DNA of 64,000 nt from Actinomycetes bacterium (GCA_021850325.1 JAJZMF010000027.1:1-64000), one strand, 5' to 3'. Shown: positions 50,301 to 60,515, numbered from the stretch's first letter. The notes: a model not told the origin generated them from the sequence alone. Numbers and translations are program-made.

Positions 50301-52990
50301 CCGTACTGGTAGCCGGTCCCGGCGATGAGCGTCGCTCCGGCCTCGGTGAAGGCCTGCGGCCAGGCCAGTGGGTCGGTGACGCCGGGGATGGCGGCAGCCG
50401 GGTCGATCCCGTAGCCCGCGTGGCAGCCGGCCCCGATGACCAGGGAGCCCTGCAGGGAGCTGCCCACCTGTTGTTGGAACTGGTTGGTGGTCAACGTGGT
50501 GGTCTCGTCGGCGGCCAGCAGGTTGTTGGCGCTGAAGTGGCCGGCCAGGAAGACCAGGTCATGGTGGCTGGCGAACAGTGAACCGGCGAAGTCGGTGGCG
50601 CTCCAGGAGCTGGAGGGGGCGGCCCCGTCGGGGGCGATGAGGGTGTCGTTGGTGGCACCGCTGCCCAGGCCCGCTGCGAAGGCTCTTTCCACCGCGTTGG
50701 CAGGGGGGGCCATGAAGTCGTAACCCGTGACCAACGAGGAGGTCGGCGTCGGCATCCTGCCGCCCTCGTTGAGGAACTGCTGGATGGTCGCCGCTATGTC
50801 GCTCGGCGTCTGGACCAACCGGCCCACCGCCGCCGTCGGCAGGGGCACCGTCGTGCCCTGGAGCGTTATCTGGCTGGCCGCGCCGTACTGGTCATCGCTC
50901 AGGTAGTAGTTGTCGGCCAGGGCGGCGCCGGCCGGGGAGGTCGTTAGCAGAGGCGGTACGTAGCCGGACTCCGGGGCCAGTCCGGCGGTGTCCGGGTAAC
51001 GGAAGAAGGGGACGACGCTGTCGTCGCCCACGATGACGACGTACTTCAGGTTGTCGGTGCTCGTGCGGTAGCTGTTGACGATGTCCTGGACCGCGCCGGC
51101 CACGAAGTTCTCGGCATAGGGGCAGCCGGGGTACTGCTGTGCCTGGCTCACCAGCTGGTCCACCCGCTGGCTCTGGCTGAGGTCGACGACCACGCCGTTG
51201 GTGGCCGACGCGAGCGCCTGCAGGTCGGGGTAGAGGCTCCCCCCGGGCGCCGCCTGCGGCATCAACTGCGAGTTGTCGACGATGACGGTCTGGTAGGCCG
51301 GCCCCCCGGCCCCACTGATCGTGCCGGAGCTGCTGAAGGTGCTGAGGGTGACCCCCTGGCAAGGACCTCCCGTGGTCCGCACACTGAGGGTGAAGGGCTG
51401 GAAGGGGGCGAAGGCGCCGTTGTTGCCCGACACCCGTACGTAGAAGTAGCCGCTGTTGTCCCATGTGTCGGCGTTGACCGACTTGTCGACGGCACCCGGC
51501 ACGGTCGAGACGGCCAACAGGCTGTCCAGCTGCGCCACTGAGTACGCGCTGGAGAAGGCCGACGGGCTGAAGGCGCTGGGCGAGAACGCACTGGGGGAGA
51601 AGGCGCTGGGCGAGAAGGCCGACGGGCTGAAGGCGCTGGGCGAGAACGCACTGGGGGAGAAGGCGCTGGGCGAGAAGGCCGACGGGCTGAAGGCGCTGGG
51701 CGAGAACGCGCTGGGGGAGAAGGCCGACGGGCTGTAGGCGCTGCCCGGGGTCTGGGCGCTGAGAGCGGCCAGGTTGAGCGGGGAGGACTGCTCGGCCTGG
51801 TAGGCCTGGCCGATATCGGAGAACACGGCCACCTGGTAGTCGGCGGGGACATTGGCCAGGCTCACGTCGACCTGCTGGCCCGGGCTCACCGGGAAGCGGT
51901 ACCACGATGCGTTCCCCTGGAAGTCGATGGTCCCCTGGGTGCCGGCGCCCGTGGTGGTGGCGGTCCCTGTGAGGTCCTGGGCCGTGAGCCAGCTGGTGTT
52001 CGGCACCAGGGCCGCCTCGGGTACCAGCGACACGGCGTCGATGAAACCGCCGGCACTGTCCTGGAGGTTGGGGTCGGTGGAGGCGAACTGGAGCACGGTG
52101 CTGTCGGCGGTAGCCGTGACGGCATAGCGGGCGACCACCCAGTTGGCCCCGCCCTGGAGGCCACTGCCCGGTTGGGCGCTGCCGACCACGTAGCTGCCGC
52201 CCCACTGCACGGAGATGGTGTTGTTGGACGGCGGGGTGTTGGGCCGGGCCCGGTAGGCGAAGGACAGCACGTACTGCTCGCCGGGCACCGTGGCCACCGT
52301 CTGGGTGACCCCTCCCACGCAGTTGGGCTCCAGCTCGTCGTACTGGTTGCCGTCATAAGGCGTGACCTTCACGATGGCCTGCTGCTGGAGCTCGATACCG
52401 CACCCGTTGATGGCCGTCCACCCCGGGATGGTGGCCAGTGCGGGAGGCGAGATTGGGGCGTTGACGAACTGAGCCGGGCCGTTCAGCACCTCTTCGGGCG
52501 GGGGTGTGCTGGCCACGTAGATCTGGAAGCCGTAGGGGCTCGTCACCACCGGCTGCTCGAACGACCCGTTCGTCACCAACTGGTTGCCGGCCACGGTCAC
52601 GGGGACGACCGCCGAGGGCGGGCTCTCGACGCCTGCCACGTCCTGTACGGCTGTGAGCTGGTGGGGCCCGGACAGAAGGTCCACGGCGACGCTCCAGTCG
52701 CCCGAGGTAGCAGCCGTGGCGGCGCCCACCGTCACCCCACCGTCCATGACCCCTACTTGCGCTCCCGGGTCGGCCGTGCCGCTGACCACCACGGTGGGGG
52801 TGGGCTGGGCCAGCCCCGCGGGGCTGGTTATGACCGGGGCGGCGGGGGCGCTCTGGGCCAGCGCCGCAGGCGCTGAGGCGTCCAGCAGCACACCGAGCAT
52901 GCCGGCGACGGCCACCAGGGCTGCAGCCATGGGTGTGGCCCGGCGGAGTGCCTGGGCCGGGGTGTACCGTCTGGTTCGGGGCACGTGCAT
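47363..52990 (-). CDS. giant secreted gingipain-like (C25) peptidase
   Basis: 1875 residues. A signal peptide (ends LLDASAPAALA) is followed by an Ig-like domain, a DUF642-like lectin domain (NGSFEQP, PGWT, YDGNQYDELE), a pre-peptidase C-terminal-like domain (about 360-410), twelve SPSAF repeats (about 418-478) and a C25-type caspase-fold domain (LKYVVIVGDDSVVPFFRYPD; His in AGHFSANN, about 817; Cys in VIGAGCHAGYG, about 855). Several Ig-like domains and a Val/Gly-rich beta-helix-like end with paired Cys follow. The ATG at 52990 has AAGGAG 10 bases upstream and lies 25 bases after the cyclase gene. Probably an exoprotease or self-processing surface protein. Confidence 0.8.
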   Translation of the reverse strand: MHVPRTRRYTPAQALRRATPMAAALVAVAGMLGVLLDASAPAALAQSAPAAPVITSPAGLAQPTPTVVVSGTADPGAQVGVMDGGVTVGAATAATSGDWSVAVDLLSGPHQLTAVQDVAGVESPPSAVVPVTVAGNQLVTNGSFEQPVVTSPYGFQIYVASTPPPEEVLNGPAQFVNAPISPPALATIPGWTAINGCGIELQQQAIVKVTPYDGNQYDELEPNCVGGVTQTVATVPGEQYVLSFAYRARPNTPPSNNTISVQWGGSYVVGSAQPGSGLQGGANWVVARYAVTATADSTVLQFASTDPNLQDSAGGFIDAVSLVPEAALVPNTSWLTAQDLTGTATTTGAGTQGTIDFQGNASWYRFPVSPGQQVDVSLANVPADYQVAVFSDIGQAYQAEQSSPLNLAALSAQTPGSAYSPSAFSPSAFSPSAFSPSAFSPSAFSPSAFSPSAFSPSAFSPSAFSPSAFSPSAFSPSAFSSAYSVAQLDSLLAVSTVPGAVDKSVNADTWDNSGYFYVRVSGNNGAFAPFQPFTLSVRTTGGPCQGVTLSTFSSSGTISGAGGPAYQTVIVDNSQLMPQAAPGGSLYPDLQALASATNGVVVDLSQSQRVDQLVSQAQQYPGCPYAENFVAGAVQDIVNSYRTSTDNLKYVVIVGDDSVVPFFRYPDTAGLAPESGYVPPLLTTSPAGAALADNYYLSDDQYGAASQITLQGTTVPLPTAAVGRLVQTPSDIAATIQQFLNEGGRMPTPTSSLVTGYDFMAPPANAVERAFAAGLGSGATNDTLIAPDGAAPSSSWSATDFAGSLFASHHDLVFLAGHFSANNLLAADETTTLTTNQFQQQVGSSLQGSLVIGAGCHAGYGIDPAAAIPGVTDPLAWPQAFTEAGATLIAGTGYQYGDTNYVAYSDQIYVDLAQQLGYGNGSAPVAVGTALLAAKQQYLSSLDQVNGLEEKALLEITLYGLPMLGLQEPDQQPAPGTAASSVTPVPAPSGTPGGTLGLESALLDVHPALVPRTVTPAGSSSTYTYDSGPQGVVADPGGPVLPVQTENVNVSGETLRGVGLWAGSYSDTAGTSPLTGDPATETGNPGVVPFASPVFFPQRTWGPNYFGTLLGGGDTQLAVTGVQYRSSPASSGTATMRSYGDLQLRLYYSNNTQSYGPNTPALAGPPTISSVTSTVSGDQVTVTATVTGDPSAGTQGVWATYTGTSSGPLHGQWQSVELTQSATDSTQWTGTFTDANAALQGSPAVDARFLVQAVNGVGEVSMDNNNGYLFTPSFTPGLQSSEALTANAFTLQLGGATGGTYGGTAGVSATLSAAPANPGATVAGQTVLFGLGGTTVAGTTDSAGTAVADLPLTELPGQYSLTASYLGSPGNSPASAQGSFQVQAAPTQLVLTGTASDQLTSGQAGGFSAALSSGGAALASEPVVFQVLSPDGSVVAADVTSTDAAGVALAGALSLPAGDVGTGYQVVARFGGTVQLPGGTSYDATSPYYEASSAALPVDVVDATSTVLTVSPDPSVSGQAITLSATVSPPEATGPVAFSADGTPVAGCQQQPLVSGVAQCALSGPGAGTYQYSAAYAGSPGTYLASGSGPVASHVDRAATQTVLSAPASSLFGAAVDLQATVSVLPPGSGTPTGTVTFSDGSAVLGSAPLVATTSGTATATFTARALPGGAQALSAGYAGSSDYSASSGTAGDTVGFTGTVTGLHLGPLVVLAGQSVEVTGSVLGPVVVAPGGALEVDAGRVAGDVVAYGAKGLRLCGAHVGGSLASLGSTGFVYTAGGPANGCGPSTVAGTVLLVGDTAGTELAGTTVGGPVLVYDNSGLGPVEQGGALPPTEIAGNVIAGPLVCVGNVPPPTDAGQPNQAPLREGQCSVPANF
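51557..51736 (-). repeat. 12 x 15-bp coding repeat nested in a 60-bp period
   Basis: Twelve 15-base units encode Ser-Pro-Ser-Ala-Phe. Four slightly different units make a 60-base superunit repeated almost exactly three times (51559-51618, 51619-51678, 51679-51737, with a single A/G change and a truncated end). Nucleotide identity between superunits is nearly complete, including third positions, so copy number expanded recently. It forms a 60-residue spacer between the binding and protease domains. Confidence 0.9.
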
Positions 52991-53015: not shown

Positions 53016-56000
53016 TCACCCGCTGATGGGCCTGGCGGGGCCGGTGTGGTCTCGGCACAGGGCCAGCGCCAGCTCCCGGGCATCGCCCAGGCTGAGGCGA
53101 CGGCCGAGGTCCGTCTGGTTGACAAGGTCGTCGCCCAGGTGCTCGGCCACCACGGCCAGCCTCTGGTCGAGCTGTTGCTGCAGGGCGGGCACCCGGGGGG
53201 AGCCGGTCTCCTCCCGGACCGCTTCCGCCGCTCCGACCAGCCGGGCTGCTCCGCGGGGGGCAAGGGCGGCCACGAGCATGGCGATGTCCTCGAGGAGCAG
53301 GCACTGCGCCCATTTGTCGCCCGCTGCTGCATAGGCGGCAAGCGCTTGCTCGTAGTTGCGCCCGGCCGCTCCCGGCTCCCCCATCTCCCTCATGGTGTTG
53401 CCCAGGTTGTGGCGGGCGATTGCCACCATCCAGGAGTCGCCCACGGCCTGCTCGACCTGCAGCGCCTCCTCCAGGTGGGCGCGCGACCCGGCGAAGTCGC
53501 CCTCCAGGAAGGCGACCATGCCCAGGTTGTTCTCGGAGACCCCCGTGCCCCAACGGTCCCCCAGGGCACGGCGTACCGCCAGGGCCTGCTCGTTGAGGTC
53601 CCTGGCCCGGGCGTAGTCCTGCTCGTACTCGGCCACGATGGCGAGGTTGCTCAGCACCGATGCCTCGGCGGCCCGGTCGCCCAGCGCCCTGCGTATGCCC
53701 AGGCTGGCCTCGTAGTGCTCACGGGCCGCCGCATAGTCGCCTCTCTGCGCCGCGATGGTCCCGCACAGGTGGGCCACCCGCCCCAGCGTCGCCCCGTCAC
53801 CCAGTGCCTCCAGCTCCGGGCGCGCCAGGCCGAGCTCGGCACGGGCCCGCTCGAGGTCCCCCTGCTTCTGCACGGGGGCAGCCCTGGCCGTGCGGGCACG
53901 TGCCGCGCCCAGCCGGTCCCCACGGCGCGCCGCAAGCTCCAGGGCTTCGCCGAAGACGGACTCGGCCTCCACAAAATCACCCTTGAGCTCGAGGACACCC
54001 CCCAGCTCCATCAGGACCTCCTGGCGGGGCTCCTCCTCGAGCAGGGGGGCGGCCCTCCGGAAGTAGTCGACGGCGACGTCGTTGGCGTAACGGCCCCGCG
54101 CCGACCTGGCAGCGGCCAGCAGGTAGTGGAGCTTCTTGGCCTGGTCGGCGCTGAGCCAGAAGTGGTGGGCCAGCAGGTCCAGGGCTTCGAGCCCGGAGGC
54201 CTCGAGCCAGTTGCCCACCCGGCCGTGCAGGTCCGTGCGCATGGCGAGCGGGATGCTCTCGTAGGCGACGTCGCGGATCACGGCATGCCTGAACGAGTAC
54301 CGGCCCCTTCCGGCCCCCAACTGCGCCACGAGGTTCTCGTTGCACAACTGGCCCAGGTGGGCGTCCACCTCCGCTTCCCCGCCCAGGTCCGGGTGTGCAC
54401 CCCGCAGGACCGGGGTGGCAAAGTCACGCCCCACCACGCTGGCGACCTTGAGCGTGGCCCGGGGCCTCTCCCCGACGGCGTCCATGCGGGACAGCACGAG
54501 CGACGCCAGGCTCATGGGGAGCTCCAGACGGGCCACCGCGGCCTCGTCCTCCGGGCTCACCCCTTTGGTGTGCAGGTAACTGACCAGCTCCTCCAGGTAG
54601 AAGGCGTTGCCCTCGGCCCGCTCGACCAGACGGTCGACGAGGCGGTCCGGGAGCGGTGCCGCCCCCCCGTACAGTGAGCGCCAACGCCCGGCCACCAACC
54701 GCCCGGCGCTCACCCGGTCCAGCCCTCCGAGCTCGAGCACCCTCGTGTACGGCAGGGCCGGGGCCACGAAGTCCCCGGGCCGGTAGGTGAGCACGACCAG
54801 TACCGCGCTGGCCCCGATGGCAGCACAGATCACCCCGAGCAGGTCCTCGGACAGCGTGCCCAGCCAGTGGCAGTCCTCGATGACCAGGACGAGGGGCCCT
54901 TGGCCGGCCCGGAGCACGAGGTAACGGGCGAGCAGTGACTCGAGCGAGGCCTTGCGCAACTTGGCGTCGAAGCTGCGGGTGAGGGGGTTGTCCTCCAGGG
55001 TGGCACCGGTGACGGCTCCCAGGAGGGGGAGCCGCTCGACCAGTTCGGGGCCTGCCGCAGCCAGGGCCCGGCGCAGCGCCGGCTCGACGGGGCCGTCCTC
55101 GGGCACGTCGAGGAGCTCCCTCCAGATGCCCCTCCAAGCCAGGTAACCGGCGCCACCCCCGACAGCCGGCGCCGCCCCTGAGTGGACGGCCAGGCCGTGG
55201 CGCGTGGCCTCGGCCGCCAGTTCCTCGACCAGGCGGGACTTGCCCATGCCCGCTTCGGCGACCAGGGCCACGACGCCGCCCCGGCCGGCGCGGGCCTCAT
55301 CGGCCAGCCCCACCAGCAGGCCCAGCTCCTCCTCCCGGCCGACCAGCGGCTCGTGCGACCGGCGCCGGCGGGCCAACCCGGCACCGGGGCGGCCGACCAG
55401 GCGCTGGACGGCTACCGTCCCGGCCTTGCCCTTGACCCTCAGCTCGCCCCTGGGCTCGAACACGAAGCTGGCCCCCGCCTCCTCTGCCAGCCCGGCCTCC
55501 ACGTAGGCCTCCTGTGGGGGGGCTGCCACCATGAGCCGGGCCGCCAGGTTCACAGCGTCCCCCAGGCAGCAGAAGGTGCGGCGGTGCCGGTGCCCGCTGG
55601 CCCCACTGCGCAACCATCCCCGGGCCAGCCCGACGCTGAGGCCGCTCACCTCCGTACGGCTTGCCAGCCCCAGGACGTCCAGGGCCGCCGCACAGGCCCG
55701 GGCGCCGTCGTCCTCGTGCGCCCGGGGGGAACCGAACACGGCGTACAGGTAAGCGCCCTTGTCCCCCAGCGTCAGTTGGAGGAGGCTCCCGCCGTAGCCG
55801 TGGACGACCCTCTGCACCTGGCGCACGAAGCGGTCCAGGCGCTCGTGGGCGTCCGGCTCGTTGTCGTAGTCGGTCCCCCCGAAGCGCACGAACATGGGCA
55901 CTGCCGGCCTCAGCTCGGCCAGGAAGAGGCCCTGGCCCGCAGCCAGCTGCTCGTAGACCGCAGGCAGCAACCACTGACGGGTCACCTCCTCGGGCAGGGG

Positions 56001-56696
56001 CGGCAGCTCAGCGGTGTGCAGTACGACCGGTGCCGGGGCCCGGACCGTTGCCGGGGACACCACACCCACCGTGCCCTGGCCCTCACCCCTCAGCTCGACC
56101 AGCTGGGCCCGCCCCTGCAGGCGGCTCGCGGTCTGCCCGTCGAGGACCACCTCGCCCACCCTCGCCGCCTGCTCGGTGGCGGCAAGCCTGTCGACCACCG
56201 CGCCCGCCAGAACGTCGATCAACTGGACATCGGGGTCCCCGACCACGAAACGGCGCGCCGGGCCGGTCACCACCGCCACCTTCATGCCCAGGCGGACCGT
56301 CGTACCCCCCGGGGTGGTGGCCTCGGCCACGCCGGCCATGGCGTCCTGCATGGCCAGCCCGCAGGCAACCCCGTAGCTGCCGTCGTCGCCGTCCAGCCAG
56401 CAGGTGACGGCGTCACCGCTGAAGTAGACCACGCTGCCCCCGTAGCGGTGCAGCTCTCCCAGCACGGCATCGAACACACGGTCCAGCACGGCCGTGAGCT
56501 GCTCCGCGCCCAGCTGTGCGCCGAGCTCGCGCACCAGCGCCTCGGTGAGCGGCGTGAACCCCGAGATGTCGGCCATCAGCGCCGTGCCCGAGACCCGGTC
56601 GGCCATGGGCCTGCCCAGGGCCAGGGCACGCCTGCGGTCGCCGGCTATGAAGGCCTCGGTGCCGGTCAGCCCCACGCTCCGGGTCGTTGCGGTCAC
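53016..56696 (-). CDS. soluble adenylyl cyclase-like protein: two class III cyclase domains, AAA ATPase, TPR
   Basis: 1226 residues. Cyclase domain 1 (about 35-190) has LMADISGFTPLTEAL and VVYFSGDAVTCWL, giving both metal Asp residues, but lacks the VN-x-AAR motif. Domain 2 (about 240-430) lacks the first metal Asp but has LTLGDKGAYLYAVFGSP and GDAVNLAARL with the transition-state Asn and Arg. An AAA/STAND ATPase follows (Walker A AEAGMGKSR near 480; VLVIEDCHWLG), then TPR-like helices (about 830-1130). This is the layout of mammalian soluble adenylyl cyclase (ADCY10). The GTG start overlaps the stop of the MFS-CNB gene (GTGA). Product is probably cAMP; see findings for specificity. Confidence 0.85.
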   Translation of the reverse strand: MTATTRSVGLTGTEAFIAGDRRRALALGRPMADRVSGTALMADISGFTPLTEALVRELGAQLGAEQLTAVLDRVFDAVLGELHRYGGSVVYFSGDAVTCWLDGDDGSYGVACGLAMQDAMAGVAEATTPGGTTVRLGMKVAVVTGPARRFVVGDPDVQLIDVLAGAVVDRLAATEQAARVGEVVLDGQTASRLQGRAQLVELRGEGQGTVGVVSPATVRAPAPVVLHTAELPPLPEEVTRQWLLPAVYEQLAAGQGLFLAELRPAVPMFVRFGGTDYDNEPDAHERLDRFVRQVQRVVHGYGGSLLQLTLGDKGAYLYAVFGSPRAHEDDGARACAAALDVLGLASRTEVSGLSVGLARGWLRSGASGHRHRRTFCCLGDAVNLAARLMVAAPPQEAYVEAGLAEEAGASFVFEPRGELRVKGKAGTVAVQRLVGRPGAGLARRRRSHEPLVGREEELGLLVGLADEARAGRGGVVALVAEAGMGKSRLVEELAAEATRHGLAVHSGAAPAVGGGAGYLAWRGIWRELLDVPEDGPVEPALRRALAAAGPELVERLPLLGAVTGATLEDNPLTRSFDAKLRKASLESLLARYLVLRAGQGPLVLVIEDCHWLGTLSEDLLGVICAAIGASAVLVVLTYRPGDFVAPALPYTRVLELGGLDRVSAGRLVAGRWRSLYGGAAPLPDRLVDRLVERAEGNAFYLEELVSYLHTKGVSPEDEAAVARLELPMSLASLVLSRMDAVGERPRATLKVASVVGRDFATPVLRGAHPDLGGEAEVDAHLGQLCNENLVAQLGAGRGRYSFRHAVIRDVAYESIPLAMRTDLHGRVGNWLEASGLEALDLLAHHFWLSADQAKKLHYLLAAARSARGRYANDVAVDYFRRAAPLLEEEPRQEVLMELGGVLELKGDFVEAESVFGEALELAARRGDRLGAARARTARAAPVQKQGDLERARAELGLARPELEALGDGATLGRVAHLCGTIAAQRGDYAAAREHYEASLGIRRALGDRAAEASVLSNLAIVAEYEQDYARARDLNEQALAVRRALGDRWGTGVSENNLGMVAFLEGDFAGSRAHLEEALQVEQAVGDSWMVAIARHNLGNTMREMGEPGAAGRNYEQALAAYAAAGDKWAQCLLLEDIAMLVAALAPRGAARLVGAAEAVREETGSPRVPALQQQLDQRLAVVAEHLGDDLVNQTDLGRRLSLGDARELALALCRDHTGPARPISG

Positions 56697-58730: not shown

Positions 58731-60515
58731 CTGTCCCGTGCGGGCGGGCCAGGGGGTTGGCGCTCCGTCGCTCTCGGCACGGCCCTCGGCCTGCCCTTCT
58801 TGTTCCTCGTGGCGTTCGTCGGCTTCCCCCTCCTGGAGGAGGTGGGGGGTAGTTTTGCCACCTGGTACCAGCTCGAGCCCGACGGCTTTGCCGGGTTTGG
58901 CAACTACACGAGGCTCTTCGCCGACGTCATGGTCCCGGTCTCGGCCCTGCACACGGTGGCCTACCTGGTGCTCACGGTCCCGGCCGAGGTTGCCCTGGGG
59001 TTGGTCGCAGCATGGGCGACGCTGCGGGTAAAGGTGGGCCGCGGCCTGCTGACGGTGGTCTTCCTGCTCCCCCTGGCTGTCCCCTGGACGGTTGCCGGCC
59101 AGGTCTTCCTGGGCTGGTTCAACGTCAACGGGGTCGCCGACCGGCTGGGCCACGACCTGCTCGGCCTGCCCCCGGGGCTGCTGTGGCTCTACCACCCACG
59201 GCTGGCCTTCGGTGCCGTCGTGGCCCTGGCCATCTGGAAGGGAGCCCCCTGGTGCTACCTCCTCCTGCTCGGCGCCCTGAGCAACTGCCCCGAGGACGTG
59301 ATCGAGGCTGCCCGGGTGGACGGCGCACGCGGCTTCACGCTCTGGGCCCGGGTCGTGCTGCCATCGGTCCGGCCCATGCTTGCCTTCGTCGTGGCCCTGC
59401 GCCTGCTGGCCGAGGCCCAGGCCTACCAACCGGTCGCCCTGCTCACCAACGGTGGGCCGAGCTTCCCGGGAGGGACCTCGCTGATCGGCTTCTACGCCAA
59501 CAAGCTGGCCTTCGGCTACTACAACTTCGGTGAGGCCTCGGCGATGGGAGCGCTCATCGGGGTGGGCCTGGTGATGGTGGCCTTTGCGGGCTACCGTGCC
59601 GCCTACCCACGTGAGGGGCGCCGGTCACGCCTGCGGCACCTGGTGGGCAGCCTGGCCCGCTCGGGCCGACGGGCCACCCGGCCGGCCCGGGGCGCACCGG
59701 GGCCGGCCGGGTGGGTCGCCCCGGCCCACAGCGCCGTGCACCCGAGGAGGAGCCTGGGCACCTCGGTGCGCTGGGCTGCGCATCGGCGCCGGCTGCTCCT
59801 GGCCCTGATGGCCCTCCTCGTCCTGGCGCCCTTTGCAGGGGAGGCCCCGGGCTGGCCGGGTACCCACGTGCTCTCGGGCACCAACTGGCCCCTGGTGGAG
59901 AGCGGCCTGTGGAACTCCCTCCTCCTCAGCGCAGTCACCGTCGTCGGCACTTTGGCCCTCGCCGTCCCGGCCACCTACCTGTTGGCCTACGGGCGTTCCC
60001 GCCTACGGGGCCCTCTGTTCCTGTTCGTGCTGTTCACCCTCGCCGTCCCCGGCGTCATCTTCATCTACCCCCAGTACGAGGAGATCGTCCGTCTGGGGCT
60101 GGTCAACACCCGGGCCGGGATGGCCGTGCTGTACGTGACAGCCAACCTCCCGCTAGCCGTCTTCTTCCTGAGGCCGGCGTTCGCCGCCGTCCCCCGCAGC
60201 CTCTTCGACGCCATGCGCGTGGACGGTGCCTCCAACTTCACGATCGTGGTGAGACTGGTGCTCCGGCACGCGGCCAGCACGCTCGTGGCCGTCTCCGTGC
60301 TGACCCTGGTCTGGGTCTGGGGCGAGTACCAGGTGGCCCAGGCCGTCCTCAGCCCCTCCAACCAGGCCGCCAACACCCTGCCCCTGGACATCTTCAACGG
60401 CACCGTGGGCAACCCGCTCGGGCCCTACCTCCTCTCGCTCGGTCCACCCCTGCTCCTCTTCTTCGCCACCCAGCGGGTGTTCCGCAAGGGCCTGGTCAGC
60501 AGCGAGCTGCTCTGA
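58731..60515 (+). CDS. fused MalF-MalG type ABC sugar permease
   Basis: About 594 residues if begun at CTG 58731, 571 from TTG 58800. Two permease domains in one chain: the first has EDVIEAARVDGARGFTLWARVVLPSVRP and the second RSLFDAMRVDGASNFTIVVRLVLRHAAS, both EAA loops of carbohydrate importers, joined by a basic Pro/Arg-rich linker near residue 300. The first membrane segment begins upstream of TTG 58800 (WRSVALGTALGLPFLFLV), and no ATG, GTG or TTG lies in frame there. GGAGG at 58713-58717 therefore hints at CTG 58731 or another unusual start. No binding protein or ATPase is encoded nearby. Confidence 0.78.
   Translation: MSRAGGPGGWRSVALGTALGLPFLFLVAFVGFPLLEEVGGSFATWYQLEPDGFAGFGNYTRLFADVMVPVSALHTVAYLVLTVPAEVALGLVAAWATLRVKVGRGLLTVVFLLPLAVPWTVAGQVFLGWFNVNGVADRLGHDLLGLPPGLLWLYHPRLAFGAVVALAIWKGAPWCYLLLLGALSNCPEDVIEAARVDGARGFTLWARVVLPSVRPMLAFVVALRLLAEAQAYQPVALLTNGGPSFPGGTSLIGFYANKLAFGYYNFGEASAMGALIGVGLVMVAFAGYRAAYPREGRRSRLRHLVGSLARSGRRATRPARGAPGPAGWVAPAHSAVHPRRSLGTSVRWAAHRRRLLLALMALLVLAPFAGEAPGWPGTHVLSGTNWPLVESGLWNSLLLSAVTVVGTLALAVPATYLLAYGRSRLRGPLFLFVLFTLAVPGVIFIYPQYEEIVRLGLVNTRAGMAVLYVTANLPLAVFFLRPAFAAVPRSLFDAMRVDGASNFTIVVRLVLRHAASTLVAVSVLTLVWVWGEYQVAQAVLSPSNQAANTLPLDIFNGTVGNPLGPYLLSLGPPLLLFFATQRVFRKGLVSSELL

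Follow-up and report, generated by a model that had tools for sequence, protein, structure and literature searches.

Within a 64,000-nucleotide window from an Actinomycetes bacterium (GCA_021850325.1, JAJZMF010000027.1:1-64000), taken to be an uncultured actinobacterium of the Acidimicrobiaceae/Acidimicrobiales because its relatives in the named collection are MAGs of that group, ORF calling and translation identified a gene with a GTG start that encodes a 1226-aa protein resembling human soluble adenylyl cyclase (sAC, ADCY10). It is flanked on the same strand by genes for an MFS transporter carrying a C-terminal CNB domain (MFS-CNB) and for a protease-like protein (Table 1). A 4-bp overlap (GTGA) joins the stop codon of the MFS-CNB gene to the GTG of the cyclase; the first reading frame thus ends inside the start codon of the second, and so the two genes are probably translated together. 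On the other side, the ATG of the protease gene, a start codon chosen in this analysis, lies ~25 nt past the cyclase stop. A 571-aa ORF (58800-60515, + strand) diverges from the MFS-CNB gene and contains two BPD_transp_1 stretches, apparently fused ABC permeases.

Table 1 Coordinates of the cyclase gene, its two catalytic domains and its flanking genes in the window.
Feature	Coordinates	Strand	Details
MFS transporter with C-terminal CNB, 588 aa	56693-58459	-	Pfam MFS_1; cNMP_binding, E 4e-20
sAC-type class III cyclase, 1226 aa	53016-56696	-	C1 ~res 30-215, linker, C2 ~240-440, AAA_16 449-633, TPR ~890-1140
C1 domain of cyclase	56051-56606	-	D43, D95 and PPi Lys K139 kept; Asn/Arg pair lost; Tyr91, Ala172
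C2 domain of cyclase	55380-55979	-	DKG K313, N383, R387 kept; R271 for first metal Asp; Cys376
Secreted gingipain-fold (C25) protease-like protein, ~1875 aa	47363-52990	-	Signal-like N-terminus; Ig-like Big_3_5 domains

Pfam searches detected Guanylate_cyc in the second cyclase domain only (residues 314-425, 36 bits), followed by AAA_16, a P-loop NTPase, and three TPR_12 stretches. The first domain is divergent and beyond Pfam's reach, yet aligns to ADCY10 C1 in single-sequence and profile searches. Among PDB sequences, human ADCY10 aligns with both domains in the same order (phmmer E 1e-23; ~21% identity), and a family profile scores it at 167 bits, against 82 bits for the next protein. The AlphaFold2 model of the C1-C2 region, built from 40 sequences, has a pLDDT of 90.6 and a pTM of 0.90. 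In Foldseek searches with this model the first 24 matches were all human sAC (best TM 0.83), and VIA-align superposed residues 4-438 of the model on residues 7-468 of sAC (Z 40.5; 2.7 Å over 420 residues). Other cyclases scored lower, including AC9 (Z 36.4) and single-domain bacterial enzymes (~25; 25.7 for CyaB). As judged from the model, human sAC is the closest solved fold to C1-C2, ahead of the transmembrane cyclases. No membrane modules of transmembrane cyclases appear in the Pfam result, and the translation leaves no room for them before C1 or between the domains. The sequence matches and the model, which follows sAC through both domains, bear out the original prediction of an internal C1-C2 pseudo-heterodimer whose second domain has a cyclase fold. 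The AAA and TPR tail it described is also present, and agrees with that of ADCY10 in domain types.

The catalytic residues were compared across 80 homologues from Actinomycetota, Chloroflexota, Verrucomicrobiota and Pseudomonadota records, with equivalences to human sAC taken from the residue table of PMC12867704. The first metal-binding Asp, D43 (D47 in sAC), the catalytic Asn, N383 (N412), and the transition-state Arg, R387 (R416), are each identical in 80/80, and none of these motifs was used to gather the homologues. The second metal Asp, D95 (D99), and the DKG-loop Lys, K313 (K334), are likewise identical in 80/80, an invariance that is partly selected because the scan patterns contained both motifs. 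In addition, K139 (K144) is Lys in all 40 aligned sequences, namely the window protein and 39 homologues. C1 keeps both metal Asp residues and has D169 and A173 where the Asn/Arg pair would stand, while C2 has R271 in place of the first metal Asp, a position that is never Asp in the 80 homologues. The domains are thus complementary, as had been proposed from the window sequence, every residue singled out in that proposal reads as it was given, and neither domain carries the full set of metal and transition-state residues. Such complementarity, invariant across four phyla, points to one heterodimer-like active site. Since the catalytic residues are invariant and no homologue among the 80 has an Asp at the R271 position, the predicted pseudo-heterodimer is, by sequence, a fixed property of the clade and no peculiarity of the window gene.

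A different view of this core is that it is catalytically weak or a mere nucleotide sensor, with the AAA-TPR part doing the work as a STAND-type regulator. Some class III folds do no more than bind ATP, and one of these (6yii) is among the Foldseek matches; the large AAA-TPR tail attached to the cyclase fits such a view as well. We consider this unlikely: all six catalytic residues are invariant in distant homologues, which is not expected of a decayed enzyme, and the recurrent CNB neighbours described below imply a cyclic nucleotide product.

The nature of that product was approached through the residues that contact the base. Cys376 occupies the position of Thr405, seven residues before the catalytic Asn, as originally noted. 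This position is Gly in 51 homologues, Cys in 11, Val in six, Thr in five, Ser in four and Ala in three, and reads S, S, T, T, T and A in close relatives. The Glu/Cys base-recognition pair of guanylyl cyclases is absent; its first position is an invariant Lys, not Glu, and the Cys, although present, is unconserved. Because the Cys position drifts in relatives while the DKG Lys does not, Cys376 is no guanylate-cyclase signature, and the hint of guanylate specificity that had been drawn from it was dropped as evidence. The combination of an invariant adenine-type Lys with a variable Thr405 position makes ATP the likely substrate, as far as sequence can indicate. That the enzyme is instead a guanylyl cyclase, with Cys376 and the Thr of the neighbouring CNB cassette (PRTAT) pointing to cGMP, appears quite improbable. 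The cassette of the MFS-CNB does read RTA, and a precedent is offered by the Dictyostelium sAC homologue, a guanylyl cyclase according to a title that PMC6660944 cites. However, many CNB neighbours of these cyclases, one of the CRP type included, have RTA or RSA cassettes, and in the enzyme itself the base-contacting Lys is constant in 80 homologues while relatives replace the Cys with Ser, Thr, Ala, Val or Gly.

This clade departs from the human enzyme in the residues linked to control by bicarbonate. Lys95 and Arg176 are the bicarbonate ligands of human sAC, and without bicarbonate Arg176 locks Asp99 in an inhibitory salt bridge (PMC12867704, PMC12250328). The window cyclase has Tyr91 at the Lys95 position, in agreement with the original prediction, and Ala172 at the Arg176 position. 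In the 80 homologues the former is never Lys and the latter never Arg; they are mostly Tyr, Gly or Ser and mostly Ala, respectively. With neutral residues at both positions (Tyr91, Ala172), an Arg176-Asp99 salt bridge is impossible and bicarbonate is not expected to act as the switch; control of the human kind is therefore unlikely, on sequence grounds, and has presumably been lost. The altered bicarbonate response that was first suggested from the Lys95 position alone is thus strengthened, since both ligands are absent clade-wide; the loss of Arg176, like the flanking genes, goes beyond what had been described. The Lys95/Arg176 pair is also incomplete in most non-mammalian sACs (2026 study). 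Metazoan pH-controlled sACs outside the mammals resemble the bacterial enzyme in that one or both positions are neutral while the catalytic residues are kept (PMC12867704), but differ from it in that here both ligands are lost in 80/80 members. A second bacterial sAC-like group of the same class ('group C', ~30% identity; L040-L049 and related loci) has Lys at the Lys95 position. In these cyclases the DKG loop is changed to DGGK, and some members have a C25 neighbour.

The genome, which is 95% complete, was found to contain one class III cyclase, the sAC-type gene, and no class I cyclase. Its CYTH protein is unlikely to be a cyclase because the C-terminus is CHAD-like by eye. The sAC-type enzyme is thus probably the only source of cAMP in this genome. 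Of the three places in the genome that encode CNB domains, one is the MFS-CNB gene next to the cyclase and the other two lie elsewhere. Cassette alignment shows that the phosphate-binding cassette of the MFS-CNB (FGEIGLMRRIPRTATV, GE...PRTAT) is intact in its Glu and Arg.

CNB genes also lie near sAC-type cyclases in other genomes. MFS-CNB genes flank the cyclase at five loci (L041, L043, L071, L078, L088), and SulP-STAS-CNB genes at another five (L081, L090, L099, L202, L225), with one more ~3 kb off (L204). Small CNB proteins (L103, L104, L118), a CRP (L141), a CNB-histidine kinase (L216) and a CNB-patatin (L224) are found beside others. SulP is a family that includes bicarbonate transporters. 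At L078 (1863-4061, - strand), the MFS transporter encoded divergently from the cyclase has two tandem CNB domains. Measured stop to stop between open reading frames, 17 CNB ORFs lie within 1.1 kb of the cyclase at 134 loci, where 0.28 would be expected from a background of 1.1 per Mb (226 matches in ~204 Mb of one class), an enrichment of ~60-fold; even with an assumed background of 12 per Mb, the probability of this by chance would be 2e-8. A CNB neighbour is nevertheless present at only a minority of the cyclases. The MFS-CNB was considered as a universal cyclase partner and rejected, as class- and phylum-wide searches placed most copies away from any cyclase, and none was found at four close orthologue loci of the window cyclase. 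In addition, of the five SulP-CNB proteins encoded closest to a cyclase, three (L090, L099, L202) lack the cassette Arg, so that some of these CNB domains may not bind cAMP.

The protein encoded downstream gave no direct sequence match in the PDB for its core. An AlphaFold2 model of its residues 486-1391 aligned with gingipain RgpB on structural re-alignment (Z 31.3 over 313 residues); when the matches to this 906-aa model were ranked by Foldseek E-value, Ig-like proteins dominated and gingipain was absent from the top 50. GHF (His) and GCH (Cys) motifs are invariant throughout its homologues, and Pfam called Peptidase_C25 in 6 of 30 of these, the window protein not among them. As modelled, the downstream neighbour has the gingipain catalytic fold with its His and Cys motifs and is a putative protease. 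It shares the fold of the catalytic domain and these two invariant motifs with RgpB and Kgp (peptidase C25), but at 11-16% identity, and differs from them in its Ig-like repeats, its Actinomycetota and Chloroflexota hosts and its pairing with a cyclase. Short tandem repeats (PSAFSPSAFSPSAF...) occur in the gene at ~51560-51735 (- strand), where they separate the N-terminal part from the catalytic core. In more distant members (G210 C1 and other class genomes), the open frames that hold these homologues reach 2400-4400 aa, giant secreted-type proteins that in many cases are encoded next to a cyclase.

Of 84 group A loci, 47 have a homologue of the protease core beside the cyclase, as do 30 of the 40 loci with 6 kb available on both sides. 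Nocardioides agariphilus and N. islandensis (L083, L086) are among the hosts of the cyclase-protease pair. Among 48 such ORFs, 24 are downstream of the cyclase, 16 upstream and eight opposite; 40 lie within 300 bp and 46 within 1.1 kb, and the remaining two are no farther away than 3 kb. Across 345 genomes of the class the protease occurs in 19, of which 17 also encode the cyclase (3.4 expected), with a p value of 4e-12 that serves only as a guide because the genomes are not independent and few candidates were scored per genome. Together, the recurrence, the tight spacing and the fold suggest that the partner found most regularly with these cyclases is a secreted gingipain-fold protease. That the protease and CNB neighbourhood reflects shared inheritance or genome islands rather than function is very unlikely. 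Common descent of the loci, the many MAGs among them and the lack of independence of the sampled genomes speak for it; against it, the neighbourhood spans four phyla, the protease gene is found in both orders and on both strands at the close distances given above, and its label, while clustered on the cyclase tree, needs at least 10 changes. A role in anti-phage defence was also considered and rejected, PADLOC having matched only generic TPR and CNB domains.

Several known systems share parts of this architecture. The window cyclase resembles the human ADCY10 catalytic core in its C1-C2 arrangement in one chain, its end-to-end fold, its catalytic residues and its DKG loop, and is unlike it in the substitutions of Lys95 by Tyr, Arg176 by Ala and Thr405 by Cys, in sequence identity and in its place in a bacterial operon. 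Its cyclase-AAA-TPR region (residues 283-886) aligns with the TIGR03903 TOMM kinase/cyclase profile at 206 bits, far below the 706-bit cut-off; the match begins at profile position 311, and the window protein differs from the TOMM fusions in having no N-terminal kinase and in its neighbouring genes. Bacteria are already known to have sAC homologues with a P-loop domain, and those of Roelofs & Van Haastert 2002 and Kobayashi, Buck & Levin 2004, as cited in PMC6660944, likewise combine a cyclase with a P-loop NTPase and a long tail; the novelty implied when the window protein was first described was therefore overstated. In the literature searched we found no account of a whole clade lacking both bicarbonate ligands or of the C25/CNB neighbourhood, and nothing on point on SulP-CNB, MFS-CNB or C25 together with a cyclase. 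The new part seems to be the C25/CNB gene neighbourhood of bacterial sAC-type cyclases. With human sAC as the root of the cyclase tree, its branch (5.3-5.6) is far too long to place, and for this reason we make no claim as to which bacterial group is nearest ADCY10.

The reading that we favour, with moderate confidence, is that of a bacterial sAC-type adenylyl cyclase that is independent of bicarbonate, whose cAMP is read by the MFS-CNB and whose pathway includes the protease. C1 would provide the two metal-binding Asp residues, while the Lys that binds the base would come from C2 together with the Asn and the transition-state Arg, forming one catalytic site between the domains that would convert ATP to cAMP. 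Control would more likely come from the STAND-like AAA-TPR tail than from bicarbonate. At a minimum, the cAMP may act on the MFS-CNB transporter of the same operon, and, judging from gene position, the pathway may serve, or be served by, the adjoining secreted gingipain-like protease. The cyclase half of this reading draws on strong sequence and model evidence, and the transporter and protease half on gene neighbourhood. A broader proposal, which we regard as tentative, is that of a cross-phylum signalling module. In it, an sAC-type cyclase no longer under bicarbonate control would act with a secreted gingipain-like protease and with MFS or SulP transporters gated directly by its cAMP, as a bacterial counterpart of the sAC and sNHE (SLC9C1) of animal sperm. 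Both would pair an sAC-type cyclase with a CNB-bearing secondary transporter, a functional analogy only, as the bacterial partner is an MFS or SulP protein, not a Na+/H+ exchanger, and no common descent of the pairing is implied.

These results describe a large bacterial clade that appears to use the C1/C2 division of labour of human sAC without either bicarbonate ligand, and this clade-wide loss is relevant to the question of whether the sensing of bicarbonate is ancestral or was acquired later. Bacterial sAC-type cyclases also gain a consistent genomic context, composed of a secreted gingipain-fold protease and CNB transporters, so that their physiology can be tested in hosts that grow in culture, Nocardioides for example.
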